The position numbers and the translations under genes are program-made. The notes under the pieces are model-generated. The model saw only the letters and a list, made by a program, of their open reading frames with translations. It was not told where the DNA came from and ran no database searches. Shown one piece after another: positions 5,944 to 63,990 of a stretch of DNA of 64,000 nucleotides. The DNA comes from a virus: positions 19,588 to 83,587 of the IMG/VR virus record IMGVR_UViG_3300025280_000026, one strand, 5' to 3'. The number at the start of each line of letters is the position of its first letter. Position 1 is the stretch's first letter.

Positions 5944-6597
5944 ATGACACAAAAACTTTTACGAGAATATTTTGAATTATGTCCCGATGGGAATTGTGTA
6001 CTTGATGTATTAACGGAAGGTGAACGCAGATCCTTGCAAGAAGGCGCGGTTTTTCTCGTAGGTGTTTGTCAAAGGGCAGGTGTCAAAAATGGCAATGGCC
6101 GGATCTATAAGAAGTCGACTCTTGAAAGAGAGGTGGAGAAATACCAGGCTTTGGTACAAGAGCGCCGCGCTTTAGGAGAGTTGGACCACCCAGATGATTC
6201 AGTTGTTAATCTTAAAAACGTATCTCATCTCATGACAAAAATGTGGTGGAAGGGTGACGACGTTATGTGCAAACTTGAAGTAATGAACACTCCATCCGGA
6301 CAAGTCCTCAAGGAGCTTATAAAATCAGGTATTAAATTAGGGATTTCCTCCAGAGGCTTGGGTTCTGTCAAAAATCACGGCGGGCAAACAATTGTAGAAG
6401 ATGATTTTAAATTGATTGCATTTGATATGGTTTCTGACCCGTCGACGCCCGGCGCCTGGGTCGGCCCGGAAAGAGGTTCTAGCTCAAACCCAGATTTGGC
6501 AGATGTTCTGGCAAAAATGTCTGAGAATATAACTTTGAAAGAAAGCACCGCAAACGGCAAGCTTAATGAAGTTCTAGATGATATATTAAAGAGCTAA
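5944..6597 (+). CDS. Prohead core protease (gp21-like)
   Basis: Serine protease that cleaves scaffold and head proteins during capsid maturation. In the 217-residue product the herpesvirus-type triad is visible: His82 in GELDHPD, Ser135/136 in LGISSRGLGS, and a downstream Asp in AFDMVSDPSTPGA (about 161-165), followed by the characteristic PSTPGA. Length is close to T4 gp21 (212 aa). It precedes scaffold and major capsid genes as in T4-type phages. Confidence 0.95.
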   Translation: MTQKLLREYFELCPDGNCVLDVLTEGERRSLQEGAVFLVGVCQRAGVKNGNGRIYKKSTLEREVEKYQALVQERRALGELDHPDDSVVNLKNVSHLMTKMWWKGDDVMCKLEVMNTPSGQVLKELIKSGIKLGISSRGLGSVKNHGGQTIVEDDFKLIAFDMVSDPSTPGAWVGPERGSSSNPDLADVLAKMSENITLKESTANGKLNEVLDDILKS

Positions 6598-7012: not shown

Positions 7013-7261
7013 ATGAGCAAAAACAAGCCAGTAAACGTCGAAGTAACACTAAGACATGTGAGAAACGACCCCAACAAATTGATTAGAAAGTTTATAAAAA
7101 AAGTTAAAAAAGAGAAAATATTAGAGGAAGTTAAAGGCCGAATGTACTACGAGAAGCCTTCATCAAAAAGAAGACGAATGAAAAAACGAAAATTAGAAAA
7201 CGCAAGAAAAGCTCAAAAAGAGCAAAATAAAAAATTAAACATACAACCAATGAAGAGGTAA
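7013..7261 (+). CDS. rpsU: Ribosomal protein bS21 homologue
   Basis: An 82-residue basic protein. Residues ~8-65 follow the bS21 pattern: a beta start (VEVTLRHVRND), the paired helix PNKLIRKFIKKVKKEKILEE, then the signature V-x-R-x-YYEKPSSKRRR, which corresponds to EVRRREFYEKPTTERKR of E. coli bS21 (71 aa). bS21 sits near the anti-Shine-Dalgarno end of 16S rRNA and affects translation initiation. Phage-encoded bS21 copies are known from aquatic phages. Here it lies 6 nt after the upstream gene inside the head operon, suggesting biasing of host ribosomes when virion genes are translated; that role is inference. Confidence 0.88.
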   Translation: MSKNKPVNVEVTLRHVRNDPNKLIRKFIKKVKKEKILEEVKGRMYYEKPSSKRRRMKKRKLENARKAQKEQNKKLNIQPMKR

Positions 7262-40132: not shown

Positions 40133-40393
40133 ATGAGACCTTGTAACCGACACATTTTAATTAAACCCATGGAAGAAGAAGAAAAAGAAATTGCGGTATT
40201 GGTGCCTGATAATTTTAGGGCTAAAACTACTTCTTTTATTAAAGCAAGAGTAGTAGACTGGGCAGATGATATAAATATACAAATGCATGAAAATGCTATA
40301 GTCGTCGTTAACTCTAGTATGATAGAAGAGATTGTGTTGGGTGACGAAAAATATCATTTAATACTAGAAAATTATGTTTTAGGCTATTTTTAG
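40133..40393 (+). CDS. GroES-like co-chaperonin (gp31-type)
   Basis: An 86-residue protein fitting the GroES beta-barrel layout: opening MRPCNRHILIKP, a flexible mobile-loop stretch IAVLVPDNFRAKT (~20-32), ARVVDWADD, ENAIVVVNSSMIEEI, and a closing YHLILENYVLGYF. The lid of a GroEL chamber contacts it through the mobile loop. The phage also encodes GroEL at 56571, so this is probably its matched partner, although it may also work with host GroEL as T4 gp31 does. Similarity to classic GroES is remote; the call rests on layout and end motifs. Confidence 0.68.
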   Translation: MRPCNRHILIKPMEEEEKEIAVLVPDNFRAKTTSFIKARVVDWADDINIQMHENAIVVVNSSMIEEIVLGDEKYHLILENYVLGYF

Positions 40394-49780: not shown

Positions 49781-50252
49781 CGAAACAACAGAATTAATGT
49801 TTGCTTCAGGGAAACTAAGTTGGTCTACACCACAAGATTTTTATGACAAATTAAATGAAGAATTAGGCCCATTTACGTTGGACGCCTGCGCGTCGAAGGA
49901 AAATACTAAATGTGAAAAATATTATTCTTTGAAGGATAACAGTCTAAAACAAGATTGGTCTGGTAATACTGTATTCTGTAATCCTCCATATGGAAGAAGG
50001 ATTCAGTACTGGATTAAAAAAGGATACGAAGAATCCTTAAAGAATAACACAAAAGTTGTCATGCTTATCCCATCTAGAACAGACACGAAGTATTGGCATA
50101 ACTATGTTATGAAGGCACAGGAAATTAGATTTGTGAAAGGAAGATTAAAATTTGGTGATTCAAGTAATTCAGCACCTTTTCCTTCAGCAGTTGTAATTTT
50201 TAATTCACAACCATCGCCTTCTATTTCGGCAATACAGAGTAAAGAAAAATAA
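49773..50252 (+). CDS. DNA N6-adenine methyltransferase (phage Dam type)
   Basis: A 159-residue protein of the phage Dam family. WSTPQDFYDKLNEELGPFTL at ~18-37, DACAS just after, and the catalytic NPPYG at ~70-74 match the family; a final KFGDSSNSAPFPSAVVIF closes the fold. It transfers methyl from SAM to adenine, probably to protect phage DNA or mark it. It overlaps both neighbours by a few bases. Confidence 0.9.
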   Translation: MNNETTELMFASGKLSWSTPQDFYDKLNEELGPFTLDACASKENTKCEKYYSLKDNSLKQDWSGNTVFCNPPYGRRIQYWIKKGYEESLKNNTKVVMLIPSRTDTKYWHNYVMKAQEIRFVKGRLKFGDSSNSAPFPSAVVIFNSQPSPSISAIQSKEK

Positions 50253-51286
50253 TGATCCAACAAGATTTTAGAGAAAGTTTATCCTTTGATGATGTTTTGT
50301 TGGTGCCGCAATATAGTGATATTGCAAGCAGAGCGCAGGTTGATATTGGGAGCAGTTTAGACGATAAACATAGATTTAAACTGCCAGTAATTTCTAGCCC
50401 AATGGACACGGTGACAGAGGAAACCATGGCCGTTGCACTTCACAGCGCCGACGCCTTCGGCATTGTACATAGGTATAATTCAATTAACGAACAAGCCGAC
50501 ATCGTTAAGAGGATCCGAGAGAAAAATTCCACTATTCCAGTTGCTGTCGCCATTGGCGCCACCGGTGATTACATCGACCGTGCCGAGAGAATGGTGCATC
50601 TTGGTGTAAAAATATTATGTATCGACATCGCCCATGGTCATCATATAGCAATGGAGCGCGCTATCAAAACCTTAAAAGACAATTATGGACGAAGGGCGCA
50701 CATCATGGCTGGAAATGTTGCGACGTTAGAAGGGTTCAACGCTCTCGCAGAGTGGGGAGCAGATAGTATTCGTGTTGGAATCGGCGGCGGTAGTATATGT
50801 TCCACTAGATTGGTTTCGGGACACGGCATCCCAACTTTGCAAAGTATTATGGAGTGTGCTAGAACACCACATTCAGCAAAAATTATTGCCGATGGAGGAA
50901 TTAAAACTAGCGGCGATATTGTTAAAGCTCTGGCCCTCGGCGCAGATTTTGTTATGGTTGGATCTTTATTCGCAGGTACAAAGGAGACACCAGGAAATGT
51001 TTTTACGTCAAGCAAAGGAAAGAAATATAAAGTCTACAGAGGAATGGCATCAGCGAAAGCACAAGAAGACTGGAGAGGGAAAGCCTCAACTCCAGAAGGA
51101 ATATCCACAACCGTGCCTTATAAAGGGAAGGTTGCTTCTATACTTAATAATCTTTCTGGTGGTATTAGGAGTGGATTTAGTTATTCTGGTGCACGGAATT
51201 TGAAGGAACTGCAAGCCAAATCTAAGTTTATTCGCCAAACATCTGCCGGCCAGCTCGAAAGTTCAACACACGCTATGAGGAGATGA
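50252..51286 (+). CDS. IMP dehydrogenase / GMP reductase family enzyme without CBS domains
   Basis: A 344-residue TIM-barrel enzyme. Hallmarks: LSFDDVLLVPQYSDI at 10-24, the active Cys183 in GIGGGSICSTR at 177-186, and EGISTTVPYKG near 280. IMPDH makes XMP from IMP, feeding guanine nucleotides; GMP reductase works the other way. PEGI-x3-VPYKG and YRGM resemble IMPDH more than GMPR, but the GGG loop is seen in both, so direction is not certain. The CBS regulatory pair is missing (bacterial IMPDH ~490 aa), which would escape nucleotide feedback. It pairs with a PurA-like gene at 62159. Confidence 0.88.
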   Translation: MIQQDFRESLSFDDVLLVPQYSDIASRAQVDIGSSLDDKHRFKLPVISSPMDTVTEETMAVALHSADAFGIVHRYNSINEQADIVKRIREKNSTIPVAVAIGATGDYIDRAERMVHLGVKILCIDIAHGHHIAMERAIKTLKDNYGRRAHIMAGNVATLEGFNALAEWGADSIRVGIGGGSICSTRLVSGHGIPTLQSIMECARTPHSAKIIADGGIKTSGDIVKALALGADFVMVGSLFAGTKETPGNVFTSSKGKKYKVYRGMASAKAQEDWRGKASTPEGISTTVPYKGKVASILNNLSGGIRSGFSYSGARNLKELQAKSKFIRQTSAGQLESSTHAMRR

Positions 51287-51606
51287 TGAAAAAAATAATT
51301 TTATTAATGATGGTGTTTTTATATAGCTGTGAGACAGGGAGAATTTACGAGTGTGATCTGTGGGAAGAACGCCAGTGTATTTGTCCGAATGGTTCAATAG
51401 GCGAACAAGAATGTTCCCGAGGGCCGGCCTTCTCGCAGCCAAAACCTCCAAGAACTTGGCCTCCATGCAGCTGTTGTTTCGATAAGAAAGAAGGCGAACA
51501 TGGTCTTTATCATATTGATAAAAATGATGCTTCTGGGTGCTGGGAAGACACGTATGATCCTTCAATTGGGCCATTCGAAATGGACGTGAAGGGTCCGACG
51601 GAATGA
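51286..51606 (+). CDS. Cysteine-rich lipoprotein
   Basis: A 106-residue protein: MKKIILLMMVFLYSC is a lipoprotein signal with Cys15 as the lipidated residue. The mature part has many Cys residues and CICPNGSIGEQEC, then WPPCSCC, a pattern like the C-x-CPNG-x3-G-x-Q-x-C motif of small exported proteins in Myxococcota-like bacteria. I use the second ATG (51286) because GAGGAG would be too close to the first (51283). It could be a superinfection-exclusion or surface lipoprotein; function unknown. Confidence 0.8.
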   Translation: MKKIILLMMVFLYSCETGRIYECDLWEERQCICPNGSIGEQECSRGPAFSQPKPPRTWPPCSCCFDKKEGEHGLYHIDKNDASGCWEDTYDPSIGPFEMDVKGPTE

Positions 51607-51944
51607 AAGATCCTACAGTTCCTGATCCTCGCGAGAGAAAGAAGTTTATGTTTTATGACACAGAGAAACGCCAAGCTGATTTGCGTATTAAATTACAGCA
51701 TGACGGCATGACGCAGAGTACTTTTTTTAGAGTTATGATGTCTGGCTATTTAGAAAATGATGAAGACATATTAAATTATCTTAACAAATTTCAAGAAAAG
51801 TATAAAATGCGAGGAAAACATAAAATTAAAAAAGTTCGTAAATTAATTGATAAAGGAAAAGAATTGAAAAAACAATTTAGTATTGACGAAAAGGAAATTG
51901 AAGATATATTCGATCTTGTTGAAGAAGAAGGCCCAGCTCTATGA
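51603..51944 (+). CDS. Hypothetical protein, ribbon-helix-helix-like
   Basis: A 113-residue protein beginning within the upstream stop (ATGA). Residues ~22-50 (KRQADLRIKLQHDGMTQSTF, then FRVMMSGYLEND) have the strand-helix-helix layout of Arc/MetJ-type DNA binders, followed by a strongly charged helical tail. Possible regulator; unproven. Confidence 0.7.
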   Translation: MKDPTVPDPRERKKFMFYDTEKRQADLRIKLQHDGMTQSTFFRVMMSGYLENDEDILNYLNKFQEKYKMRGKHKIKKVRKLIDKGKELKKQFSIDEKEIEDIFDLVEEEGPAL

Positions 51945-52177
51945 AGTGTTTAGATAAATGTATTGAATTAGACGTCTCGTGCCCTGTCTGTGAATGTCGA
52001 GCGTGGATCGACAGTGAAGAAGAATTTAACTGTATTCACGAAGCCGTCGCAGCTGCGGGGGGGATGACCTTGCGTGAAGTAGCCAAAAGATTGGGCGTTA
52101 GTTTTGTTAGGGTCAAACAGATAGAAGACAAAGCAATAAAAAAATTAGGTAAAATCACAAATCTCAAGACTATTTAG
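51941..52177 (+). CDS. Small sigma region 4-like HTH protein
   Basis: A 78-residue protein overlapping the preceding stop (ATGA). The first ~31 residues hold six Cys (3, 7, 14, 17, 19, 31), suggesting a metal site. Residues 42-69 (MTLREVAKRLGVSFVRVKQI, then EDKAIKKLG) match the helix-turn-helix of sigma70 region 4, which reads the -35 box. It is too short for a full sigma and lacks regions 2 and 3, so it may act as an accessory factor or anti-sigma-like competitor. Confidence 0.75.
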   Translation: MKCLDKCIELDVSCPVCECRAWIDSEEEFNCIHEAVAAAGGMTLREVAKRLGVSFVRVKQIEDKAIKKLGKITNLKTI

Positions 52178-52244
52178 AGTAGTAAAATTATTTGTGTTTT
52201 TAGCACGTAACGATACGTTGAAAAGTCTCAAGGAGTCAAATAAA

Positions 52245-52784
52245 ATGAAAAAACGTCTACTTAACGAACAAAAAACTCGTCGCTTTATGAACCTGGCCGG
52301 TATTAAAAATCTAAGTGAAAACTTTATCGATGAAACTGATTTAGATGAAGTTGACGAATCCGCCACTGATGTTGATGAAGCTCACGATTTAGAGCCCCCT
52401 GAGCTGGATGAACCTGAAGATATGGATGAGCCTGAAGGCATGGATGAGCCTGAAGGCATGGATGAGCCTGAAGATATGGATGAGCCTGAAGATATGGATG
52501 AGCCTGAAGACGAAGTTTCTGGTGAGAGCCTGGCAGACTTTTTAGATTGGATATCTGGCAAGGTTGAGGATTACGCACAAGAACATGACATTGATTTTGA
52601 CGTCGAGGTAGAAGAACTGCCCGGCGACGAAGAAGAAGATTTAGGGCCTGACCTCGAACCCGAGGACGCCGACATCGAGGAACCCGGCATGGAGGGTGAA
52701 GAAGAGCCTGCTATGGAAGATGAGCTAATTGATGAAGTAACCAAGAGAGTTGCTCTTCGGTTACTCCGCGAAGCGCGACGATAA
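52245..52784 (+). CDS. Acidic repeat protein, possible prohead core component
   Basis: A 179-residue, strongly acidic protein; ATG at 52245 follows AAGGAG. The start KRLLNEQKTRRFMNLAGI resembles small core proteins of marine T4-like phages. Residues ~55-90 are DEPEDM/DEPEGM hexapeptide repeats; a helical segment SLADFLDWISGKVEDYA follows, then more Glu/Asp, ending with a helical basic tail (VTKRVALRLLREARR). Function not established. Confidence 0.75.
   Translation: MKKRLLNEQKTRRFMNLAGIKNLSENFIDETDLDEVDESATDVDEAHDLEPPELDEPEDMDEPEGMDEPEGMDEPEDMDEPEDMDEPEDEVSGESLADFLDWISGKVEDYAQEHDIDFDVEVEELPGDEEEDLGPDLEPEDADIEEPGMEGEEEPAMEDELIDEVTKRVALRLLREARR
52407..52511 (+). repeat. 18-bp in-frame tandem repeats
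   Basis: Five complete units (52407, 52425, 52443, 52461, 52479) and a partial sixth, consensus GATGAGCCTGAAGATATG or GGCATG, encoding DEPEDM/DEPEGM. Units 2-3 and 4-5 are identical pairs, implying recent slippage. Confidence 0.92.
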
Positions 52785-52802
52785 ATAGTACAAAAATGAC
52801 TC

Positions 52803-52830
52803 TTGACTTTTTAAAAAAACCCGCTATATT
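52803..52830 (+). promoter_or_regulatory. Sigma70-like promoter overlapping a terminator
   Basis: TTGACT (52803-52808), 16-bp spacer, TATATT (52825-52830). The -10 box lies within the stem-loop of the terminator at 52816-52850, so initiation and termination signals share bases. It would drive the ClpP/amidase/GroEL block. Confidence 0.55.
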
Positions 52831-52850
52831 TATAGCGGGTTTTTCTTTTT
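52816..52850 (+). terminator. Rho-independent terminator
   Basis: CCCGCTA (52820-52826), loop, TAGCGGG (52833-52839), then T's interrupted by one C. An A-run precedes, lengthening the stem. Confidence 0.9.
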
Positions 52851-52865
52851 CAAAATGAGGTTTAA

Positions 52866-53246
52866 ATGGAAACAAATGGATGGGAAGTTTTTTTATGGTA
52901 TTGTTTTGGAGCGTTCTCTTACCAGCTGGTTTCTAGGTTGCTCCGTCACGGCAATCTGATAGTTTTATATAACGCTGCTTTGTTATCGTTACTCAATATA
53001 ATTTACTTGGCGGATAAAGAGGTTAAATTTTTAAACGAATACCGCTATAATATTCTAAAAGACACCGGCACTTCCGAGGAAGAAATTAATATTTTAATGG
53101 ATACCAACAACCGGTCAATAGAAATATGGCGTTTTCTTGTCATACAAACTTTAATAGGGATGGCCCCACCAAAGCTCCGACAAACCCTAAAATTTAAAAA
53201 TTGGGAACAAGCAGTCAATTTAATTGAAAAGCACAATAGGGAATAA
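52866..53246 (+). CDS. Hypothetical protein with N-terminal membrane segment
   Basis: A 126-residue protein with ATGAGG upstream. Residues ~7-25 (EVFLWYCFGAFSYQLVSRLL) and ~30-50 are hydrophobic, the rest helical and charged. A possible inner-membrane protein next to lysis genes; no family recognised. The last bases abut the ClpP start. Confidence 0.75.
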   Translation: METNGWEVFLWYCFGAFSYQLVSRLLRHGNLIVLYNAALLSLLNIIYLADKEVKFLNEYRYNILKDTGTSEEEINILMDTNNRSIEIWRFLVIQTLIGMAPPKLRQTLKFKNWEQAVNLIEKHNRE

Positions 53247-53247
53247 A

Positions 53248-53940
53248 ATGTTTACACAAAGAAAGAAGAAAAAGCAAGATTCGAAGGAAGAGACAAAAGA
53301 AGAATGTCCGACCCCGGAAGAAGAATGTGGTTCTCCGTTGATGCTTGATATAAGCTCGTTAACCTCCCAAGAAGCTCCTAAAATCAGGGCAACGGGTATT
53401 TATGGTACTATTAACGAGGATAAGTGTTCCGAGGCTTTATTTTCTTTGATTGTTTTAAAAGAAACCGGCAAAAAAGAAATTCTTGAAGACCCGGAAAGCA
53501 CAGATTCAGAAGTAATCACCACTTATGAACCTATTGATTTTTATATATCAACGTATGGCGGCTCAGCAGCGGATATGTTTGCTGTGTATGACGCTATAAG
53601 ATATGTTCGTGAAGAGTGTTTTGTTCGAACATTCGGACTTGGCAAGGTAATGTCTGCCGGCGTCCTCTTACTGGCATCGGGGACAAAAGGCGAGCGTCGA
53701 ATTGGCGCAAGCTGCCGTGTTATGATTCATGGTGTGATGTCGGGCCAAGCCGGGCACTTAGACGATTTAGAAAATGAAATGGAGGAAGCTAAATTTACCC
53801 AAAGACAATATGTTAAAGCATTGGCAAAAGAAACAAATATGACTGAAAAGTATATTAAAAAATTAATGGATAAAAAAATAAATGTTTATCTTGATGCAGA
53901 AGAAGCGGTTGATTTAGGGATCGCTGACATAATTATTTAA
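53248..53940 (+). CDS. clpP: ClpP-like serine protease
   Basis: A 230-residue protein; ATG at 53248 is preferred over an upstream TTG/ATT because it follows the previous stop directly. After a charged, Cys-containing N-terminal extension (~1-45), the ClpP fold shows YISTYGGSAADMFAVYDAI at ~99-117, catalytic Ser136 in GKVMSAGVLLLASG, His161 in VMIHGVMSGQAGH, and Asp216 in NVYLDAEEAVDLGIAD. All three triad residues are present. No ClpX/ClpA ATPase is visible in the window, so it may use a host unfoldase or act as a prohead-type or independent peptidase. Confidence 0.93.
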   Translation: MFTQRKKKKQDSKEETKEECPTPEEECGSPLMLDISSLTSQEAPKIRATGIYGTINEDKCSEALFSLIVLKETGKKEILEDPESTDSEVITTYEPIDFYISTYGGSAADMFAVYDAIRYVREECFVRTFGLGKVMSAGVLLLASGTKGERRIGASCRVMIHGVMSGQAGHLDDLENEMEEAKFTQRQYVKALAKETNMTEKYIKKLMDKKINVYLDAEEAVDLGIADIII

Positions 53941-53946
53941 AAGAAG

Positions 53947-54846
53947 ATGAATTGGTTTAAACTACGATATAACAAGAGATCTGCAAAAAAATACAGCTGG
54001 GATCCTTCCTGGTTCGGCGCTACAAAATTTGATGGTGTCTTGATAAACAACATTAAGGAATTCCAGAAGTTACACGATCTAAACCCAGACGGTCTCTGTG
54101 GTCCGATGACATACCGGAGAGCCTATACAAATAAATTAGCTTATATTGATGACGCGGAGGATACTGTGGCCACGGACATTAAAAAAAATCGTATTTTCTG
54201 CAATGGTTTTTCCGTAAGAATCAAATGGGACAAAATAAATGTCAATTGGATCAATGAGAAATGCTATTCGAAAGTTGCCGGCAAAGCGAGAAAACCGACG
54301 ATGGTCGTTACTCATTGGGACGCAGCGCTTTCCGCTGCATCGTGTAAGAGGATCTTAGAGAAGCGCAAGATATCAACTCATTTTGTTATAGACAACGATG
54401 GCACCATTGTCCAACTCGTCGATACACAGGACGTTGCTTGGCATGCTGGAATAAGACGAGTGAATAAAGCCTCAATAGGTATCGATTTCAGCAATGCTGT
54501 GTACACGAAATATAACAAAGCCTACCACAAGAAGGGTTTTGGTTTCCGTCCCATTATAGAAGGATGGAGGGTCCATGGTTGGCGTCCGAAGCCATTCCTG
54601 GGCGCATATCCAGTACAAATTGAAGCGTACAAGGCCTTGCTCGAAGCTTTGCACAATCATTATGGCATTCCTTTGGAGTGCCCGCTAGATGACGACGGAA
54701 GACTTCTAACGGCGATGCACAAGCCCTCTAAGAAAGCCAAATTCAAGGGTGTGGTCAACCATTATAACCTGTCTACAAATAAGTGGGACACTTTAGGTTT
54801 GCAGCTAGATGAAATACTTGAAGAAATTCGTTTAAATGAGGACTAA
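53947..54846 (+). CDS. N-acetylmuramoyl-L-alanine amidase endolysin
   Basis: Peptidoglycan amidase for lysis. The 299-residue product has an N-terminal peptidoglycan-binding-like segment (INNIKEFQKLHDLNPDGLCG at ~33-52) and an Amidase_2 domain at ~110-290, with a zinc His123 in VVTHWDA, an HFVIDNDGTIVQLVD strand pair, VAWHAG at ~163-168 and a late His in VVNHYN. No signal peptide, so a holin is needed; the membrane protein at 61788 is a candidate. Confidence 0.9.
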   Translation: MNWFKLRYNKRSAKKYSWDPSWFGATKFDGVLINNIKEFQKLHDLNPDGLCGPMTYRRAYTNKLAYIDDAEDTVATDIKKNRIFCNGFSVRIKWDKINVNWINEKCYSKVAGKARKPTMVVTHWDAALSAASCKRILEKRKISTHFVIDNDGTIVQLVDTQDVAWHAGIRRVNKASIGIDFSNAVYTKYNKAYHKKGFGFRPIIEGWRVHGWRPKPFLGAYPVQIEAYKALLEALHNHYGIPLECPLDDDGRLLTAMHKPSKKAKFKGVVNHYNLSTNKWDTLGLQLDEILEEIRLNED

Positions 54847-54854
54847 TTATAGTT

Positions 54855-56507
54855 ATGAAAAAAAGTGTTATCGATAAATTATATGAATTATACAAACCCA
54901 AAGAGAATCTTTCACTTGATTCTCTTTTAGATTTAATCACAGAGCAGATGGTGGTTGTACAAGAGGAAGACCCTCAACCTCAACGCAAATTCAGCGCAGC
55001 GAGAGCTTATAAAACCATTCTTAAATCATTTCAGGCCCCTTCGGAGCAAACGGGTAAAATAGGCACCGATGAAAGAATAAAATTTCAAAAATATGTTTCT
55101 CGCAATATTAGGGGGAATACGCTGGTTGAAAAAATAGCATCAATTAATAAAATTGTCGAGGGCTCTTTTGAAGGTGATCCGAAGATATCTGATATTTTAT
55201 CAGCCCTTGGTGCTATAAAAATGTTGCAACAAACATTAGATGATTTCAACGAGTCAACTGCTGGTTTTCTATTTGAAGCATTTTTATCCGGACTCTTAAA
55301 AGGCAAACAGGTAACCGATAAAGTTGGTGGTACTCTGCCCATTGAGGACTGTATGTTCTTCGTTGACCCCAAAACGGGCGAAGGCGGCCGGCCAGTCAGC
55401 TTGAAATTGCTCAGTCCCAGAACACTCATTGAGGGAAGTCTACAAAATTTGTTAGGATTCTTCGAGCGCGCCAAAATCGCTGCCATTGCCGAGCAAAAGG
55501 GAATTGAATATATTGTTGCAGTTAAAACCTTAAGAAATGAGCTAGATGTGTATTCTTTTAACATCAAACCAAGCAACTTTTTTAACTGGATAGATGAAAA
55601 ATATTTTGATTTTCATGATTATAATATTGAAGGTTCGAATAACTTGATGGAAGAAAAATCTCCAGAGGCCACTGAGACTTCAAAAAATGAGTGGGAGAGG
55701 TTTGCACGTGCCCGCTTGCCGATGATGGGTTTAGACCCGAGACAAACAAAATTTAATTATGATTGGAAACACATTCGCGATTGGAAGAACGTTATTCCTA
55801 TACCATCGAAGAAACGTGCCCTTGTTGCTGCAATTGCTGAAATTATTCTAAGCCCTGCAGGGAAGGACGCATTTGAAAAATGGGCTCTCGGCCAGTTTCG
55901 GCATGCCATACCTCCCGAGAAACTCGCCATCACACCGGAATTGGAGTCGGAGTTTCATTCTGAAGAGCCTGAAGTGCGGCAAAACGCAGCTATTCAAATA
56001 GCTAAAATGGGTGCAGAACGAAGAAGCGCTTACTTGGAATCTATTTTAGGTGTAGCTGAAGGCTTTAGAGAAGACGCCATACATGTCCAAAGGTGGTATG
56101 CTGTTAACACGAAGGGGGACCAAGCGACGTCCTCAGATGTTGTAAGCCATTTAAATGCACTTGTTAAGAGTGGAGACCCGGAGTCCATTAAAAAATGGGC
56201 GAAGATATTAGAAGATCGTCGGAGAGAATCACAGTTTAAGATTCAACCAATTAAAGCGAGATCCTACGGTACGCTTTACGGCACAATTGATGTCAACAAG
56301 AAAAAAATCTATCGTGTGCTTCAAAAGTATAGTGTACAGCTTGAAAAGTTGTGTGCACCAATATATGAAGAGTTAGAAGCCCTCTCTGGTTTCATTAACG
56401 GTTATTATATGCAGAATCGAGTTGGAGATGCGTTTAAAGCGTCAGATTCTGCTAAACGTCTCACTGGTTATACAGAGCAACTAACAGAAAAAACAGAAAA
56501 AGATTAA
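54855..56507 (+). CDS. Large uncharacterised protein, possible nuclease-like fold
   Basis: A 550-residue protein. Residues ~135-220 contain STAGFLFEAFLSGLL, then PIEDCMFF and GGRPVSLKLLSP; the order Glu, Asp, x-Lys within helix-strand-strand is reminiscent of PD-(D/E)xK nuclease folds, but the middle acidic residue is uncertain. The C-terminal half is helical. Similar proteins occur in marine T4-like phages without known function. It lies between the amidase and GroEL. Confidence 0.6.
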   Translation: MKKSVIDKLYELYKPKENLSLDSLLDLITEQMVVVQEEDPQPQRKFSAARAYKTILKSFQAPSEQTGKIGTDERIKFQKYVSRNIRGNTLVEKIASINKIVEGSFEGDPKISDILSALGAIKMLQQTLDDFNESTAGFLFEAFLSGLLKGKQVTDKVGGTLPIEDCMFFVDPKTGEGGRPVSLKLLSPRTLIEGSLQNLLGFFERAKIAAIAEQKGIEYIVAVKTLRNELDVYSFNIKPSNFFNWIDEKYFDFHDYNIEGSNNLMEEKSPEATETSKNEWERFARARLPMMGLDPRQTKFNYDWKHIRDWKNVIPIPSKKRALVAAIAEIILSPAGKDAFEKWALGQFRHAIPPEKLAITPELESEFHSEEPEVRQNAAIQIAKMGAERRSAYLESILGVAEGFREDAIHVQRWYAVNTKGDQATSSDVVSHLNALVKSGDPESIKKWAKILEDRRRESQFKIQPIKARSYGTLYGTIDVNKKKIYRVLQKYSVQLEKLCAPIYEELEALSGFINGYYMQNRVGDAFKASDSAKRLTGYTEQLTEKTEKD

Positions 56508-56515
56508 TTTTTCCG

Positions 56516-56543
56516 TTGACTTGGGTATAATGGTTGCTATTGT
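56516..56543 (+). promoter_or_regulatory. Sigma70-like promoter for GroEL gene
   Basis: TTGACT (56516-56521) with a perfect TATAAT only 4 nt later (56526-56531) and a weaker TATTGT at the usual 16-bp spacing (56538-56543). The gene starts at 56571 after ATAAGGAG. Confidence 0.5.
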
Positions 56544-56570
56544 TATGTATATAACTATAAGGAGCTAACT

Positions 56571-58151
56571 ATGGCTAAGAGCTACGCGCAAGGCAAGGAA
56601 CTACGCGAGAAGATTCTGAAGGGTATCAATATATTGGCTGACAACGTTGCTTCAACCCTCGGCCCAAAAGGGAGAAATGTAATTCTCCATAAAAAAGGTT
56701 CGTCTCCGATGATTACCAAAGACGGAGTTACGGTTGCTAAGTTTGTTAAATTAGAAGATCCATTTGAAAATTTGGGCGCCCAGATTATTAAGCAAGCAGC
56801 ATCAAACACGAACATCTCTGCCGGTGATGGAACAACTACATCGACTGTGTTGGCCCGAGAGATGCTGTTTAAGGCACAGAAGTACATTGCCGCAGGGGCT
56901 AGCCCAATTGACCTCAAAAGAGGCATGGACAGGGCCACAAGTGTTATTATTGAAAAGCTATTAGCTTCCTCAAGACCGGTTAAATCTGAAGAAGATATCC
57001 GACATGTCGCGACATTATCTGCTAACGGCGACAAGACAATCGGTGATATGATCACAATGGCAGTTGATAAAATCGGTAAAGATGGCGCTGTCTCAATTGA
57101 AGAAGGCAAGTCGATGAATACCACTATAGATATTGTGGAAGGTTTCAGGTTTGATTCTGGATATTTTGCACAAGCGTTCGTAACCAACAAGAGAAAACAA
57201 TCGATTAAATACGATGACGTACTCCTTTTGGTTACGAACTATAAAATTGAGTTGTTGGAGGAGATATTGCCCACGTTGGAGGTTGTAGCACGTGAGGGCC
57301 GGCCCTTTATAATCGTCTCAGAGGAGGTAGAAGGCCAAGCGCTGGCTGCATTAATTATGAATACCGTTCGGGGTAGCATGAAAGTTGCTGCTGTAAAAGC
57401 CCCTAGATATGGTCAGGAGCGCAGAAATATCCTGGAGGATTTATGTATCTCCACTGGAGCTACTTTTATCAGCCGTGATTCTGGTATTAAGCTTAAAGAT
57501 GTGAAGCTGAAGCATTTAGGCTCGGCTAAGAAGATTGAGATTCTTAAGAATACCACTACCATTGTTGACGGCAAGGCAGACTGGGAAAAAGTGGAGGAGA
57601 GGATAGAAAGCTTAAAGGAAGAGATAAAACAAACTGAAGATCTAGTAGAATGTGAACGAATTCAAGAAAGAATCACACGTATGTCTAGCGGCGTGGCTAT
57701 AATCAGAGTGGGCGCCCCAACTGAAATCGAAATGATCGAAAAGAAACATCGCATTGAGGATGCCCTCGAAGCCGTGCGTTCTGCTCAACTTGAGGGCACA
57801 GTCCCCGGTGGCGGTGTGGCATTAGTCCGAATTGTACAGAGTTTAGACGTTGAAGTTGATAACGATGATCAAAGGCTAGGTGTTGAAATCATCAAACAAG
57901 CAGCTTATGCCCCGTTAAGACAAATGGCCTTAAATGCAGGAGAATCTTATGATTTGATACTGGCAGAAATTTTGGCCAATCCAGATGGCTTCGGATGGGA
58001 TTTTTCGAATAACACAATTGTTGATATGTACGAGCAGGGTATTATTGATCCTGCGAAGGTTACTCGCAGTGCTATACAGAATGCAACTTCGGTGGCTTCG
58101 ACTTTGATTACAACGAATCACGCGATTGTGGAGATGGCTGATGAAAGTTAA
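56571..58151 (+). CDS. groEL: GroEL chaperonin (60 kDa, phage-encoded)
   Basis: A 526-residue full-length chaperonin (E. coli GroEL 548 aa). Signature GDGTTTSTVLARE at ~85-97, preceding AAGASPIDLKRGMD, the apical VAAVKAPRYGQERRN, the equatorial EGTVPGGGVALVR and SGVAIIRVGAPTEIE blocks are all present in order, so the ATPase and ring fold should be intact. The usual C-terminal Gly-Gly-Met tail is missing (ends VEMADES). In bacterial hosts GroEL folds capsid proteins, and a phage copy may be tuned to its own capsid or baseplate. A GroES-like partner is at 40133. The end overlaps the next gene by 11 nt. Confidence 0.97.
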   Translation: MAKSYAQGKELREKILKGINILADNVASTLGPKGRNVILHKKGSSPMITKDGVTVAKFVKLEDPFENLGAQIIKQAASNTNISAGDGTTTSTVLAREMLFKAQKYIAAGASPIDLKRGMDRATSVIIEKLLASSRPVKSEEDIRHVATLSANGDKTIGDMITMAVDKIGKDGAVSIEEGKSMNTTIDIVEGFRFDSGYFAQAFVTNKRKQSIKYDDVLLLVTNYKIELLEEILPTLEVVAREGRPFIIVSEEVEGQALAALIMNTVRGSMKVAAVKAPRYGQERRNILEDLCISTGATFISRDSGIKLKDVKLKHLGSAKKIEILKNTTTIVDGKADWEKVEERIESLKEEIKQTEDLVECERIQERITRMSSGVAIIRVGAPTEIEMIEKKHRIEDALEAVRSAQLEGTVPGGGVALVRIVQSLDVEVDNDDQRLGVEIIKQAAYAPLRQMALNAGESYDLILAEILANPDGFGWDFSNNTIVDMYEQGIIDPAKVTRSAIQNATSVASTLITTNHAIVEMADES

Positions 58152-58470
58152 AATAAGTTATTCCGTGGACATTGAGGAAATACCAGAAAAGGTTCATTGT
58201 ATTTTAGAGGAAGTTAAGAAGGAATTAACACACTTATCTGGTAGGATCCCTGCCGTCGTCAGCACGAATTTGCATGGCGAACAATATGTAGAATTAAGAC
58301 AAGAAATTGACCAAGTTAGAAAAAAACTTTTTATTGCTGATTCTAAACTAGAAGATAGTCTTTTAATATTGGACGATTGGAAACGTGTGACCTTGGCTTT
58401 AGAAGTTGAGAGAACGACATTGATTAACGAACCCAAGGAGGCAGAAAAAAATGTTGAAAACAGCGAATAA
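58141..58470 (+). CDS. Hypothetical coiled-coil protein after GroEL
   Basis: A 109-residue protein; ATG 58141 lies inside the last codons of groEL. The N-terminus is a beta-rich stretch (KVKISYSVDIEEIPEKV), then a charged helix-rich coiled coil (~45-100). No family recognised. The overlap suggests co-translation with GroEL; it may be an accessory of the chaperonin, which is speculative. Confidence 0.7.
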   Translation: MKVKISYSVDIEEIPEKVHCILEEVKKELTHLSGRIPAVVSTNLHGEQYVELRQEIDQVRKKLFIADSKLEDSLLILDDWKRVTLALEVERTTLINEPKEAEKNVENSE

Positions 58471-58702
58471 GGGAGATTTGGTTTATATTCCTTCGGAAGT
58501 GACAATATATCGATATTTCAGTACAGCGAGAGGAATTCAAGTAAAAGATTTCTGTAAATTAGAGGAACCTCGTCATTTTTTGGTTGTGGAATCCACATCC
58601 CGAGAAAAAGAAATTGGAATACATTGGGATGGTAGCACCTGGTATGTCGACCGAACGGATATTTTTGTAGAGGAGGATACTTTAAATGATACCGTTGACT
58701 GA
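58451..58702 (+). CDS. Hypothetical small protein, SH3-like
   Basis: An 83-residue protein; AAGGAGG precedes the ATG at 58451 and the start overlaps the preceding gene by 20 nt. KGDLVYIPSEVTIYRYF at ~7-23 and DGSTWYVDRTDIFVEED suggest a small beta-barrel. Unknown function. Confidence 0.7.
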   Translation: MLKTANKGDLVYIPSEVTIYRYFSTARGIQVKDFCKLEEPRHFLVVESTSREKEIGIHWDGSTWYVDRTDIFVEEDTLNDTVD

Positions 58703-58955
58703 AGTATATAAAACACAACAGCCGGGAAGCGATGAAAAAACATATTCTTTGCGGCAAGTGATGATCAGCCCACAACTCGTGTCTCTTATAAGGGAGGACG
58801 ACAAGATAGAAGACTGTTTTAAGAGAGGGTTGTTGCCTAAAAACTTAGATAAACGTCAAAAATTTTCAAAAATCCATCTTACTTCTCTAAATAACAGCAG
58901 CCTTACGGTTGTCGGAGATATGTTTTTAATATGTAAAAAGCTTCTAGGAGGATAA
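58686..58955 (+). CDS. Hypothetical protein, FlbD-like N-terminus
   Basis: An 89-residue protein overlapping the previous gene. MIPLTEVYKTQQPG, then YSLRQVMISPQLVSLIREDD and IHLTSLNNSSLTVVGD, follow the small-beta layout of FlbD-type proteins, an impression only. Function unknown. Confidence 0.65.
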   Translation: MIPLTEVYKTQQPGSDEKTYSLRQVMISPQLVSLIREDDKIEDCFKRGLLPKNLDKRQKFSKIHLTSLNNSSLTVVGDMFLICKKLLGG

Positions 58956-58956
58956 A

Positions 58957-59208
58957 ATGGAAAAATACTTATTGTTTATTATTGATGAATGTTCTTTCTG
59001 CACAAAAGCGGTCCTTCTATTGGAAAAACATTTTATAATTTATAAAACAGTTGACGTCACTGATGATTTGAATACCCGAGTTCAGATTAAAGAAGCGTTT
59101 GGATGGAACACTTTTCCTATTATTTTGAAGCAAGATAAAAATACGTTTAATTTGATAGGAGGATACACGGATTTAGAAAAATATGTGGGGGCTTATGACA
59201 CAAAGTGA
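58957..59208 (+). CDS. Glutaredoxin
   Basis: An 83-residue glutaredoxin/NrdH-type thioredoxin fold: active CSFC at ~12-15, cis-proline in TFPIIL at ~52-57 and GGYTDLEKYV near 68. It probably supplies electrons to the class II ribonucleotide reductase at 38254 or reduces other targets. AGGAGG precedes the ATG. Confidence 0.9.
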   Translation: MEKYLLFIIDECSFCTKAVLLLEKHFIIYKTVDVTDDLNTRVQIKEAFGWNTFPIILKQDKNTFNLIGGYTDLEKYVGAYDTK

Positions 59209-59539
59209 AGAATATTTCTCGATGCCAAGAGACAAAATAATATCTCATGTAAAAGAAAGTAGAAGAGAATTATCTGCATGCAAGCATTTAATAAAATATT
59301 TTTTACGGAAAGCCGCAGAAAATAGATGGTTATTGGCTGCAGTATGTGACGTCTACTCAGCAAATTATAAATTACTATCTGAGCTGAGCACACTGTTAGA
59401 ATATGCTAGTGACAAAGAACAAAATGTTGTGCTGATGACGAAGGAAGATCTTGCGATTGTTGAAACAATAATGATTGCCAGGCACTACACCACCCGCGAG
59501 TTACAGCTTCACGGGAATGTTTCCATATCAGTTCATTAA
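59195..59539 (+). CDS. Hypothetical helical protein
   Basis: A 114-residue, mostly helical protein; ATG 59195 sits within the last codons of the glutaredoxin gene, and is preferred over an upstream GTG. No family recognised. A basic Arg/Lys-rich N-terminal third is followed by hydrophobic helices. Confidence 0.7.
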   Translation: MTQSEEYFSMPRDKIISHVKESRRELSACKHLIKYFLRKAAENRWLLAAVCDVYSANYKLLSELSTLLEYASDKEQNVVLMTKEDLAIVETIMIARHYTTRELQLHGNVSISVH

Positions 59540-59557
59540 AAAAAGTTGTTTTTTTTC

Positions 59558-59585
59558 TTGACTTAATGATTTTGGTGATTAAATT
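59558..59585 (+). promoter_or_regulatory. Sigma70-like promoter before Hsp20 gene
   Basis: TTGACT (59558-59563), 16-bp spacer, TAAATT (59580-59585), about 64 nt before the ATG. A short A/T hairpin (AAAAAAA...TTTTTTT) just upstream may end the previous transcript. Confidence 0.6.
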
Positions 59586-59648
59586 TGTTCTGGTGAAGGT
59601 TGCTGCACAGGATCTTCGCCACAAACTTGCTTAAAAAGGAGAAATATT

Positions 59649-60083
59649 ATGAACAACACTGCAATAAGTAATTATCGTACAAGCCTATTGGGTTGGAACG
59701 TTTTTGATGATATCTTTAATTCTATGCCCACAACGTGGATGAAGAGAACAACTGAGGGTTATCCGGTGGCCGACATTTACCGCGATGATGGGGGGGACAC
59801 TATTATGGAATTCGCACTCGCCGGCTTTCAGAAAGAAAATTTACATGTCGAAATACTCCCAGAAAAAAGGGAGATTCACGTAAGCTCAGACTCGCACGGT
59901 GATGAGGAGAAGCCAGGTTTTAACAGTCGTCGTATCGCACGCAGGACTTTTCATAAGACCTACGTCAACTACGACAATAATTTAGATCTAAGCGGCGCCA
60001 CAGCTGAGTTCAAAAATGGACTTTTGCGCTTGGTTTTACCGCAAAGGCCAGAGGCAGAAGCTCTAAGGGTTGAAATTAAATAA
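59649..60083 (+). CDS. Small heat-shock protein (Hsp20/alpha-crystallin)
   Basis: A 144-residue protein; AAAAGGAG precedes the ATG. The alpha-crystallin domain runs from ~40 to ~130: PVADIYRDDGGDTIMEFALA, then AGFQKENLHVEI, SRRIARRTFHKTYV, and the closing NGLLRLVLPQRPE, where the G-L-L-R-L-V pattern (family A-x-x-x-n-G-v-L) is clear. Hsp20 keeps unfolding proteins soluble and hands them to GroEL-type machines. It is common in aquatic T4-like phages. A terminator follows. Confidence 0.95.
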   Translation: MNNTAISNYRTSLLGWNVFDDIFNSMPTTWMKRTTEGYPVADIYRDDGGDTIMEFALAGFQKENLHVEILPEKREIHVSSDSHGDEEKPGFNSRRIARRTFHKTYVNYDNNLDLSGATAEFKNGLLRLVLPQRPEAEALRVEIK

Positions 60084-60104
60084 GTTTTTTGTTTTAATTT
60101 TGTT

Positions 60105-60134
60105 AAAAGCAGGGGATATCCCCTGCTTTTTTTT
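60105..60134 (+). terminator. Rho-independent terminator after Hsp20
   Basis: AAAAGCAGGGG, loop ATAT, CCCCTGCTTTT, then more T's: an 11-bp perfect stem with an eight-T run. Confidence 0.95.
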
Positions 60135-60188
60135 ATAAATTAAAAAAATTGTAGCTAATTGAAATTATTAATATTTTTTTAAAAAAAC

Positions 60189-60216
60189 TTGTTCTTTAAA
60201 AAAATGATTCTATATT
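60189..60216 (+). promoter_or_regulatory. Sigma70-like promoter before PAP2 gene
   Basis: TTGTTC (60189-60194), 16-bp spacer, TATATT (60211-60216). The leader then contains a short hairpin GTGTAAA...TTTACAC at 60228-60245. The rest of the 60135-60275 gap shows only AT-rich sequence. Confidence 0.55.
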
Positions 60217-60275
60217 TATTAATGAGGGTGTAAATTTTTTTACACACCAACTGCTCATTCCAGCGAGGGAAGTGT

Positions 60276-60935
60276 ATGCCTGTTATGCGAAAAGCTAACT
60301 ACATGCTAGTATTTGGCATGTGCAATTTACTTATTTACTTCCTTATCCAAAGTTACGTTTCCAATGAGTATAATTTCATGACCCCTCTGGACCGGTCAAT
60401 TCCATTTATGCCCGAGTTTGTTTGGATTTATCAAAGTTTATTACCAGTTATTGCTTTAACAATGGTACTTCTAGTTAAATCCAAACGGCTTTTTTTCAAT
60501 ACTTTTTGGGCATGTCTGCTGGCAACCTTCATAATACACATGTTTTGGATCTTTTTTCCTTCGTTTTATCCAAGGCCAGAGATCAACCCTGAAAGTTTAT
60601 CCGAAATAGTAGTACAAATGTCATATGATATAGACAATTCATCTAATACTTTCCCTTCCGGCCATGTGGCCTTCGCGTGGATAATGCTATTCGGAGCTAG
60701 AAAAAGCACGAAGGCAAAGGAAATTTTAGGTCTAAGTCGTTTATATTTTCTTTGGGCAGCCGGCGTTACATTATCAACTTTGGTAATCAAAATGCACTAT
60801 GTGGTTGATGTAATAGGCGGCCTCGCCGTAGCGACCTTTTGTTTTTATATAGTTGGGTGGTTGATTAGAAGATTTAACTGGTACCCAGTTGTGGACACTA
60901 GTTATCATAATGAAGACTTACAAAATAATAACTGA
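60276..60935 (+). CDS. PAP2-family membrane phosphatase
   Basis: A 219-residue membrane protein with about six hydrophobic segments. The PAP2 motifs are present: PSGH at 127-130 (within NTFPSGHVAFAW) and KMHYVVDVIGG at 172-182 with His174 and Asp178; the conserved Arg of the SR motif is replaced (STLVIKMH). PAP2 enzymes cleave lipid phosphates such as undecaprenyl pyrophosphate or phosphatidic acid. In a phage it could alter envelope lipids, cell-wall precursor supply or O-antigen assembly. GAGGGAAG precedes the ATG at 60276. Confidence 0.82.
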   Translation: MPVMRKANYMLVFGMCNLLIYFLIQSYVSNEYNFMTPLDRSIPFMPEFVWIYQSLLPVIALTMVLLVKSKRLFFNTFWACLLATFIIHMFWIFFPSFYPRPEINPESLSEIVVQMSYDIDNSSNTFPSGHVAFAWIMLFGARKSTKAKEILGLSRLYFLWAAGVTLSTLVIKMHYVVDVIGGLAVATFCFYIVGWLIRRFNWYPVVDTSYHNEDLQNNN

Positions 60936-61407
60936 TGAAAGAATACTAAGAAACCCTTGCAAACCGTGTGAAACCGTTAAAGAAGGAAACGACATCGGTC
61001 ACATATTAAAGGTTATGCTTGATAAAAGCACCGATGGCGTAGGCCTGGCTGCTAATCAGGTAGGCATACAAAAGAGTGTTTGTCTAATCAACGTTAAGGA
61101 GCCAATCGTTCTAGTTAATCCTGAGATTGTGGGCAAGTCTGGCAAATTTCTTTATAAGGAGGGTTGTCTTTCTTTTCCAGGTGAGTATATTATAACTGAG
61201 AGGTATAAAAACATCGTGGTGAAAACCGATAATCATAAAAATTTGATTACTTTCTCCTCTGAAACCAAAGAGGATATGTTAGAATGCGCATGCGTCCAAC
61301 ATGAAATTGATCATTTAAATGGTAAAACGATGTTCGACCGCGCGCCTCCGCTAGCATCGCGAAAAACTGCGGATTTATTAATAAAAGGTTTAAAAAATGG
61401 CAAATAA
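60910..61407 (+). CDS. def: Peptide deformylase
   Basis: Removes the formyl group from new proteins. The 165-residue product shows all three motifs: GVGLAANQVG at 43-52, EGCLSFP at 84-90 and QHEIDHLNG at 130-138, giving the Cys and two His metal ligands and the catalytic Glu. Start ATG 60910 lies inside the PAP2 gene and beats an upstream GTG. Phage deformylases are known from aquatic phages. Confidence 0.94.
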   Translation: MKTYKIITDERILRNPCKPCETVKEGNDIGHILKVMLDKSTDGVGLAANQVGIQKSVCLINVKEPIVLVNPEIVGKSGKFLYKEGCLSFPGEYIITERYKNIVVKTDNHKNLITFSSETKEDMLECACVQHEIDHLNGKTMFDRAPPLASRKTADLLIKGLKNGK

Positions 61408-61567
61408 TTATTCAGGCGCGAAAAAGAAGAAGACGCGACAAGGTAATGGAAAATTTAGTAAAAAAACCCACTCCGGTGGAGAAACTTACACTGATCGCCA
61501 CCGACGCGGCTCAACTTCTAACAAATTTCATAGAAAAAAGAAGCCTTACCGAGGGCAGGGTCGTTGA
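61397..61567 (+). CDS. Tiny very basic protein
   Basis: A 56-residue protein (MANNYSGAKKKKTRQGNGKF...) overlapping the deformylase end by 11 nt. About 35% Lys/Arg with Gly, Ser and Asn, predicted disordered, likely nucleic-acid binding. Composition resembles the protein at 5787. Confidence 0.6.
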   Translation: MANNYSGAKKKKTRQGNGKFSKKTHSGGETYTDRHRRGSTSNKFHRKKKPYRGQGR

Positions 61568-61707
61568 ACGACGAAAGACCATTTTTACAAATACCCTTGC
61601 CTCCGCCCGAAGAAGAGCGTAGGTTATACGAAGAATGGCTCCGTCGACAACAAAATGAAGAAGAAAAATTAGAGGAAGGCGAAGTAATTATTATTGACAT
61701 GTCATAA
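61564..61707 (+). CDS. Small conserved acidic protein
   Basis: A 47-residue frame starting with TTG at 61564 (GAGGG upstream, overlap 4 nt). Sequence pattern NDERPFLQIPLPPPEEERRL ending EVIIIDMS is like short proteins I associate with T4-like marine phages. Function unknown. Confidence 0.55.
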   Translation: MNDERPFLQIPLPPPEEERRLYEEWLRRQQNEEEKLEEGEVIIIDMS

Positions 61708-63379: not shown

Positions 63380-63456
<77 letters not shown>

Positions 63457-63475
63457 TAATAAAAGGAGAAATACA

Positions 63476-63649
63476 ATGGCTGAATCAAGAATTACAAATA
63501 AAGAATTACAGGCTCAAGTTCAAAGCTTGAACACAAGGCTAGGCAAAATGGTCGATGACTTTTATGTTTTGAAAGAAGACATTGGTCAATTCAAGGCCGC
63601 CGTGGCTGATGATATACGCAAAGTCCTTAAAATTACCAATAAAAAATAA
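63476..63649 (+). CDS. Small coiled-coil hypothetical protein
   Basis: A 57-residue protein between two tRNAs; ATG 63476 after AAAAGGAG. The in-frame GTG at 63422 would run through tRNA-Arg, so it is rejected. Two charged helices (LQAQVQSLNTRLGKMVDDFY and on). Function unknown. Confidence 0.65.
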   Translation: MAESRITNKELQAQVQSLNTRLGKMVDDFYVLKEDIGQFKAAVADDIRKVLKITNKK

Positions 63650-63650
63650 A

Positions 63651-63723
63651 GGGCTTGTAGCTCAATGGTTAGAGCTACCGGCTCATAACCGGTAGGTTCC
63701 TGGTTCGAGTCCAGGCGGGCCCA
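63651..63723 (+). tRNA. tRNA with CAT anticodon (elongator Met or lysidine-modified Ile)
   Basis: 73 nt; acceptor GGGCTTG pairs with CGGGCCC, anticodon loop CTCATAA, no encoded CCA. A paired first base (G-C) argues against an initiator tRNA. Confidence 0.92.
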
Positions 63724-63730
63724 CTAACTT

Positions 63731-63803
63731 GCTGATGTAGCTCAACTGGTAGAGCAGCTGATTTGTAATCAGCAGGTTGTAGGTTCAAGTCCTGTCATCA
63801 GCT
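63731..63803 (+). tRNA. tRNA-Thr (anticodon TGT)
   Basis: 73 nt; acceptor GCTGATG pairs perfectly with CATCAGC; anticodon stem GCTGA/TCAGC with loop TTTGTAA. No encoded CCA. Reads ACA. Confidence 0.94.
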
Positions 63804-63814
63804 TAGGAATATTA

Positions 63815-63863
63815 ACCGAAGTGGTGGAATTGGCATACACAAGAGACTTTATTTATAAAGCGT
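63815..63863 (+). pseudogene. Truncated tRNA-Leu-like 5' half
   Basis: ACCGAAGTGGTGGAATTGGC and following bases match the 5' half (acceptor, D-arm) of a class II tRNA such as the intact tRNA-Leu at 63905, but the anticodon region (CTTTATTTATAAAG) is distorted and neither a variable arm, a T-arm nor a 3' strand complementary to ACCGAAG (CTTCGGT) is seen before the next tRNA. Probably a decayed duplicate. Confidence 0.5.
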
Positions 63864-63904
63864 TATGCAAAATCTAGCATTGAAATATAATCTAAATGAG
63901 TTAT

Positions 63905-63990
63905 GCGGGTATGGCGGAATTGGTATACGCAAGGCACTTAAAATGCCTCGATCTTTGATCATGCCGGTTCGAGTCCGGCTACCCGTACCA
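63905..63990 (+). tRNA. tRNA-Leu (anticodon TAA)
   Basis: 86 nt with an encoded CCA: acceptor GCGGGTA/TACCCGT (one G-T), anticodon stem GGCA/TGCC with loop CTTAAAA giving TAA, long variable arm, T-loop TTCGAGT. Reads TTA. Confidence 0.94.

Follow-up and report, generated by a model that had tools for sequence, protein, structure and literature searches.

A candidate chaperonin-centred gene array with a Ser-His-Asn ClpP variant in a lineage of putative marine T4-like phages

The 64,000-nt window analysed here comprises positions 19588-83587 of the 83.6-kb IMG/VR record IMGVR_UViG_3300025280_000026 (coordinates below are those of the window unless stated otherwise). Its plus strand carries a block of genes encoding, in this order, a ClpP-like protein, an amidase, a 550-aa protein, the chaperonin GroEL, four small proteins, a glutaredoxin (Grx) and the small heat-shock protein Hsp20 (Table 1). 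Profile matches to Portal_T4, Gp23 and the S77 prohead protease bear out the phage origin assigned in a preliminary description of the sequence. Judged by these virion genes the virus is a T4-like phage, and the uncultured lineage to which it belongs is apparently one of marine T4-like phages. A class II ribonucleotide reductase, a bacterial-type DNA polymerase III alpha subunit, RecA and a DnaB-like helicase are also encoded in the window. The gene set named earlier (ClpP-like protein, GroEL, Grx, Hsp20, peptide deformylase (PDF) downstream, bS21 and tRNAs) was recovered by Pfam, tRNA and profile matches, and the analysis extends it by two genes of the block itself (those of the 550-aa protein and the amidase), by a GroES-like gene located at 40133-40393 and by the terminators at either end of the block.

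Table 1. Features of the block and related genes elsewhere in the window.
Feature	Position	Strand	Evidence or remark
Terminator-like stem, strong, 5' of block	52815..52844	+	13 pairs + T tract
126-aa protein, first gene of unit, without PHROG match	52866..53246	+	promoter-like site upstream, 2 mismatches from consensus
ClpP-like S14-fold protein, Ser136-His161-Asn212	53248..53940	+	Pfam CLP_protease E 4.5e-29
N-acetylmuramoyl-L-alanine amidase, endolysin-like	53947..54846	+	profile matches
550-aa protein, probable PD-(D/E)XK fold, tight GroEL neighbour	54855..56507	+	model, invariant residues
Promoter-like site 5' of GroEL, TTGACT-16-TATTGT	56516..56543	+	near-consensus in relatives
GroEL, group I chaperonin, without GGM tail	56571..58151	+	Cpn60_TCP1 E 1.4e-68
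Glutaredoxin, CSFC	58957..59208	+	Pfam E 1.8e-10
Promoter-like site 5' of Hsp20, TTGACT-16-TAAATT	59558..59585	+	3 mismatches from consensus
Hsp20 small heat-shock protein	59649..60083	+	Pfam E 1.4e-6
Terminator-like stem, strong, block end	60105..60130	+	11 pairs + T tract
Peptide deformylase (PDF), outside bounded unit	about 60910..61407	+	Pfam E 2.8e-29
GroES-like Cpn10, 86 aa, 3' of class II ribonucleotide reductase gene	40133..40393	+	weak Pfam match, family profile
bS21 match	about 7064..7189 (record 26651-26776)	+	profile match
S77 prohead protease, gp21-like	5944..6597	+	profile match
tRNA-Arg, -Met, -Thr, -Leu	63380..63990	+	four tRNAs predicted

Gene content was compared around 80 GroEL loci from IMG/VR (53-82% GroEL identity), counting only those with at least 6.5 kb upstream (58/80) or at least 8 kb downstream (42/80) of GroEL. 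Upstream, the ClpP-like gene was present in 50/58 loci, the 550-aa gene in 52/58, a gene for an IMPDH-like protein in 50/58 and the amidase in 29/58, and downstream Grx was found in 34/42, Hsp20 in 12/42 and PDF in 7/42. When the ClpP-like protein was used as the seed, GroEL lay in all 12 loci that extended 5 kb downstream; with the 550-aa protein as seed, GroEL was present in 58/59 loci and ClpP in 59/72. After dereplication (100 loci reduced to 70 representatives at 95% GroEL identity, of which 57 and 34 had sufficient flanks), Fisher tests gave p = 0.56 for Hsp20 with PDF and p = 1.0 both for ClpP with Hsp20 and for ClpP with PDF. Among 14 longer records Hsp20 and PDF occurred in 7 each, and both together in just 4. 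The co-occurrence in relatives to which the preliminary description had pointed as a test is thus seen for ClpP, GroEL and Grx, whereas Hsp20 and PDF are distributed independently, at chance level. ClpP, GroEL and Grx are, however, linked as strongly to unrelated neighbours such as IMPDH and the 550-aa protein as to one another, and joint function is therefore not proven by synteny alone. Since the fixed genes include IMPDH while Hsp20 and PDF are sporadic, the arrangement is best described as a lineage-core array with accessories and not as one assembled quality-control system.

Promoter-like sites of the sigma-70 type were counted in the 70 dereplicated relatives as sequences with no more than two mismatches from TTGACA-16/18-TATAAT within 120 bp upstream of a gene, excluding genes with fewer than 125 bases before them. 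Such sites precede GroEL in 49/70 relatives (3.2 in shuffles) and Hsp20 in 9/20 (0.8), and 14 of the GroEL sites among those listed fit the consensus perfectly or almost perfectly. The first gene of the block has one in 18/54 (1.6 in shuffles) and the gene after GroEL in 15/60 (3.0); the counts are 6/58 before ClpP (1.0), 1/52 before IMPDH, 2/49 before Grx and 0/10 before PDF. Strong plus-strand terminator-like stems number four in the window, one pair behind the capsid gene and another pair bracketing the block, and the 11.7-kb region 50000-61700 contains two against a shuffle mean of 0.05. A stem lies between ClpP and the last gene ahead of the block in 33/63 relatives and falls inside the ClpP-GroEL interval in 3/65, and PDF sits beyond the terminator that closes the block. 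Plain counts of promoters (31 vs 28.1) and terminators (9 vs 8.9) in the region match those of shuffles; the statements on regulation made here use solely the strong-stem criterion and the promoter count across relatives. From these we infer that host RNA polymerase would act on the chaperone genes at promoters of their own, and probably at an early stage.

A T4-type late promoter, TATAAATA, was considered and set aside: it occurs 12 times in the window where 4.8 would be expected, but 7/12 copies lie on the minus strand, and the plus strand has none from 40277 to 62983. TTGACTT alone gives no signal in the window (14 vs 14.0 expected). Separately, three copies of TTGACTT at an exact 24-base spacing at 12164-12218 on the minus strand form a short internal repeat.

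A serious alternative, to which we give somewhat less than an even chance, is that the gene order is ancestral only and that the genes perform separate tasks (Grx with ribonucleotide reductase, the amidase in lysis, PDF in translation) with no joint quality control. The constancy of IMPDH and the 550-aa gene, equal to that of ClpP, and the independent variation of Hsp20 and PDF speak for this alternative. So does the separation of GroEL and ClpP by about 80 kb in two Vibrio phages with both genes, among the matches listed (60 of 276 and 40 of 116 records). It fits less well with a promoter type that is common to GroEL and Hsp20 and rare before most of their neighbours, and with the terminators that bound the block.

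The chaperonin itself is close to its cellular counterparts. GroEL scores 618.9 bits against the NCBIfam equivalog TIGR02348 (cut-off 582.1), and Asp51, Asp86 and Asp397, which we take to be the ATPase aspartates 52, 87 and 398 of E. coli numbering, are kept in 24/24 aligned relatives. C-terminal GGM repeats were found in 0/24 of the aligned GroELs; this tail is not known to be essential to the GroEL family. The 86-aa Cpn10 lies 16 kb from GroEL and matches Pfam Cpn10 weakly (16.7 bits, cut-off 21.1; E 0.0074) and its NCBIfam model at 23.1 vs 128 bits. Two relatives' proteins scanned alongside pass the Pfam cut-off with 23.6 and 25.7 bits, and a family profile of 17 rows matches Cpn11 (2.6e-9) and GroES (3.5e-5) in the PDB over nearly the full length. 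With a GroES-like gene in 22/24 records, the 86-aa protein is read as a predicted divergent GroES, and the phage would therefore bring both chaperonin halves. Taking this together with the promoters, the explanation that we favour, with moderate confidence, is a lineage-core array centred on a dedicated GroEL/GroES folding module predicted to be under host-type promoters, to which a ClpP variant is added that would work without a phage unfoldase.

The ClpP-like protein departs from the preliminary description, in which its Ser-His-Asp triad was called intact. Alignment to solved ClpPs gives Ser136, His161 and Asn212, the last (in 'iNvyl') standing at the position of their catalytic Asp ('rDyfl' in 3q7h). 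In 96 ClpP-family rows (open reading frames of at least 150 aa) Ser and His are present in 96/96, while at the third position 79 rows have Asn and 17 have Asp; 8 of these 17 rows, assigned by eye, are a second ClpP type located elsewhere in the same contigs. The main family, represented by 58 divergent rows, has Ser and His in 58/58; at the third triad position Asn (51 rows) outnumbers Asp (7 rows) and is the rule of the family. On a quick tree of the 58 rows the split between Asn and Asp takes two changes or more, just one of them forced by well supported branches. The predicted structure has a mean confidence (pLDDT) of 87.7, with low confidence in the N-terminal 40 residues, and superposes on the ClpP structure 1tg6 with Z 25.5 and a root-mean-square deviation (rmsd) of 1.4 over 165 residues, although the score against the ClpP equivalog TIGR00493 (67.2 bits) does not reach the cut-off of 308.6. 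A phage ClpX or ClpA was not detected, AAA_2 exceeding its cut-off in 0/14 longer records, which are incomplete or unrated; the lone signal, in G007, is weak and below the cut-off (21.2 bits).

The second ClpP-type gene occurs in 7/14 longer records with Asp in 7/7, the first ClpP gene of the same records having Asn in 6 and Asp in 1. In the three nearest relatives (L002-L004) it lies directly after tRNA-Thr and before the next tRNA. This Ser-His-Asp gene, at L002:17317-18027 and L003:16768-17400, is inserted in a tRNA cluster, and its product is near head-maturation protease models. That the Asn-bearing subunit enters mixed rings with host ClpP or with the second phage ClpP, redirecting host Clp proteolysis in a way that recalls the dependence of Listeria ClpP1 on ClpP2, is a reading we regard as unlikely. 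It would explain why Asn prevails (51/58) beside an invariant Ser and His, why an unfoldase of the phage's own was not found in the 14 records and why a second, Asp-bearing ClpP is present in half of them. It would also suit the positions aligned with the docking pocket, presumably Phe112 and Leu114 of E. coli ClpP, which have become Lys/Arg in 51/58 and Gly in 53/58 relatives. The second gene is nevertheless absent from 5 of the 12 records carrying ClpP and from its tRNA site in the window, where tRNA-Thr and tRNA-Leu are 101 bp apart. A bolder and quite doubtful extension takes in the chaperonin: a Ser-His-Asn viral ClpP family that has lost the ATPase-docking pocket would act solely in mixed rings with host ClpP, placing the host Clp protease under phage control while the phage GroEL/GroES, expressed from host sigma-70 promoters, takes over folding.

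The 550-aa protein is a close and constant companion of GroEL, the two genes being mostly 12-96 bp apart, and has no Pfam, PHROG or PDB sequence-profile match. In 48 rows E64, G137, E141, Q152, D165, S182, K184, G194, S195 and F235 are invariant, and E141, D165 and S182-x-K184 resemble the E/D/(D,E)xK signature, with Ser182 where D/E is usual. Its model (pLDDT 83) shows a weak but consistent likeness to the PvuII, Hjc and RecU nucleases, the best structural match being PvuII 1ni0 (Z 7.1, rmsd 5.1, 146 residues). Foldseek returned nothing at E <= 0.001 in the PDB (best E 0.7), and two unnamed viral proteins in BFVD. We consider the protein a likely PD-(D/E)XK-type, putative nuclease. Against genome contigs its profile gave one match, on a Neomarinimicrobiota metagenome-assembled genome (MAG) contig with no GroEL within the stretch examined. 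Relatives of the 550-aa protein also occur without GroEL in L237 and L253 (Neomarinimicrobiota MAG contig), with a trypsin-like protease on one side and a Lys-rich protein on the other, both labelled by eye. GroEL could be mainly the private chaperone of this neighbour, a fast-evolving virion or host-attack protein. We hold this to be rather improbable: the tight pairing (52/58 before GroEL, 58/59 after the 550-aa gene) and the low identity of the 550-aa copies to that of the window (14-73%, against 53-82% for GroEL) are in line with it, but the loci L237 and L253 have the gene without an adjoining GroEL.

That the ClpP-like protein is a head maturation protease, as PHROG labels of its best matches read, was rejected as highly improbable, because an S77 gp21-like prohead protease already sits in the capsid cluster, so that the ClpP-like protein is not needed for this step; its gene is 42 kb from the capsid gene and its score against the NCBIfam head-maturation model is 53.7 with a cut-off of 120.

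Under the favoured explanation, a lineage-core array built around a folding module, the phage GroEL and GroES would fold bulky phage proteins, and analogy with T4 gp31 makes the 585-aa gp23-type capsid protein the first candidate client. T4 relies on host GroEL together with its own gp31 co-chaperonin; the Cpn10 resembles gp31 as a small co-chaperonin of a phage whose capsid protein is of the gp23 type, whereas the present phage supplies its own GroEL. Hsp20, where present, would hold unfolded protein, and the ClpP-like protein may dock on a host Clp ATPase or cut small unfolded substrates. For Grx the probable task is reduction of the class II ribonucleotide reductase, an enzyme of the phage that explains its presence as easily as the block does, while deformylase, bS21 and tRNAs would be separate accessories. 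Several observations weigh against this explanation. The capsid protein is proposed as a GroEL client by analogy, and GroEL is not beside the capsid gene, its fixed neighbour being the 550-aa protein. The GroEL and Hsp20 sites of the window itself are three mismatches from the consensus, weaker than those of the relatives, and 21/70 relatives have no GroEL site at two mismatches or fewer. Position 202 of GroEL, which we take to correspond to Tyr203 of E. coli, is Ala in 17/24 aligned GroELs, and docking of GroES may be altered as a result. The incomplete or unrated state of the records also means that the absence of ClpX is no proof. The earlier proposal of phage control over translation, folding and turnover emerges stronger with regard to folding, given the GroES partner and the own promoters, and weaker with regard to turnover, given the changed triad and no phage unfoldase being found in the records; a single protein-quality system spanning all three exceeds the evidence.

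The accessory genes were assigned as follows. The alpha-crystallin domain of Hsp20 covers residues 53-141 (28.7 vs 20.8 bits). PDF, which follows a PAP2 gene downstream of the block, scores 102.2 vs 22.8 bits for Pep_deformylase and 103.7 for TIGR00079, just below 103.95. Overlapping the end of its gene is a very basic 56-aa protein (61397-61567; TRQG...YRGQGR) that matches nothing in Pfam, PHROG or NCBIfam. The IMPDH/GMP-reductase-like protein at 50252-51286 has no CBS domains, and the product of 62159-63160 is a short adenylosuccinate synthetase (333 aa) that stays far below the cut-offs for both PurA and PurZ and fits the short 337-position model PRK04293 over most of its length; with these two enzymes, the purine-base chemistry of the lineage merits attention. 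Despite the T4-like virion, the window encodes a full DNA polymerase III alpha subunit (45214-48666) and a DNA polymerase A-like protein (29968-31158; E 3.9e-8, under the cut-off). A PLP-dependent enzyme of the PALP fold (44320-45174) lies in the replication region.

Chaperonins, ClpP, Hsp20, PDF and bS21 are all known in phages, according to the accessible portions of earlier reports (PMC5332604, PMC7185714, PMC7162821, PMC12619734), and some phages carry homologues of both GroEL and GroES (PMC7185714, in part). Phage EL gp146 is likewise a phage-encoded group I chaperonin, although, as far as the same portions go, it is only 22% identical to GroEL and ignores E. coli GroES (PMC7185714), whereas the GroEL described here is near cellular GroEL and has a Cpn10 16 kb off. 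In Listeria monocytogenes ClpP1, described in the available part of PMC9765437, Asn also replaces the catalytic Asp, and this Ser-His-Asn protein was reported active only with ClpP2; here, by contrast, the family is viral, Asn is the majority state and no own Clp ATPase was found in the records searched. Marine viral genomes with ClpP and glutaredoxin, the latter in a T4-like one, and GroEL in other marine virus groups have been reported (PMC5332604); the portion consulted treats Grx and ClpP as Fe-S cluster genes and does not describe the block, the triad or the promoters. Huge phages share bS21, tRNAs and PDF with this phage, but Clp, GroEL and chaperone are absent as terms from the main text of that report, as far as it was available (PMC7162821). 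Our literature search, with most subscription journals outside its coverage, found neither an early promoter on a phage GroEL nor a phage ClpP with Ser-His-Asn. What is new here is an array, fixed in the lineage, that joins a ClpP with Ser-His-Asn to a split GroEL/GroES pair and host-type chaperone promoters, and the altered protease and the private host-type GroEL promoter look new in themselves.

The array raises the questions of whether the phage GroEL needs its distant Cpn10, and whether the protease is active alone or solely in mixed rings. Phage chaperonins and ClpP-like genes are usually catalogued singly as auxiliary genes, and here they form one array. A large uncultured lineage, apparently of marine phages, combines a consistent promoter signature on its chaperones with a protease triad known from a partner-dependent bacterial ClpP.

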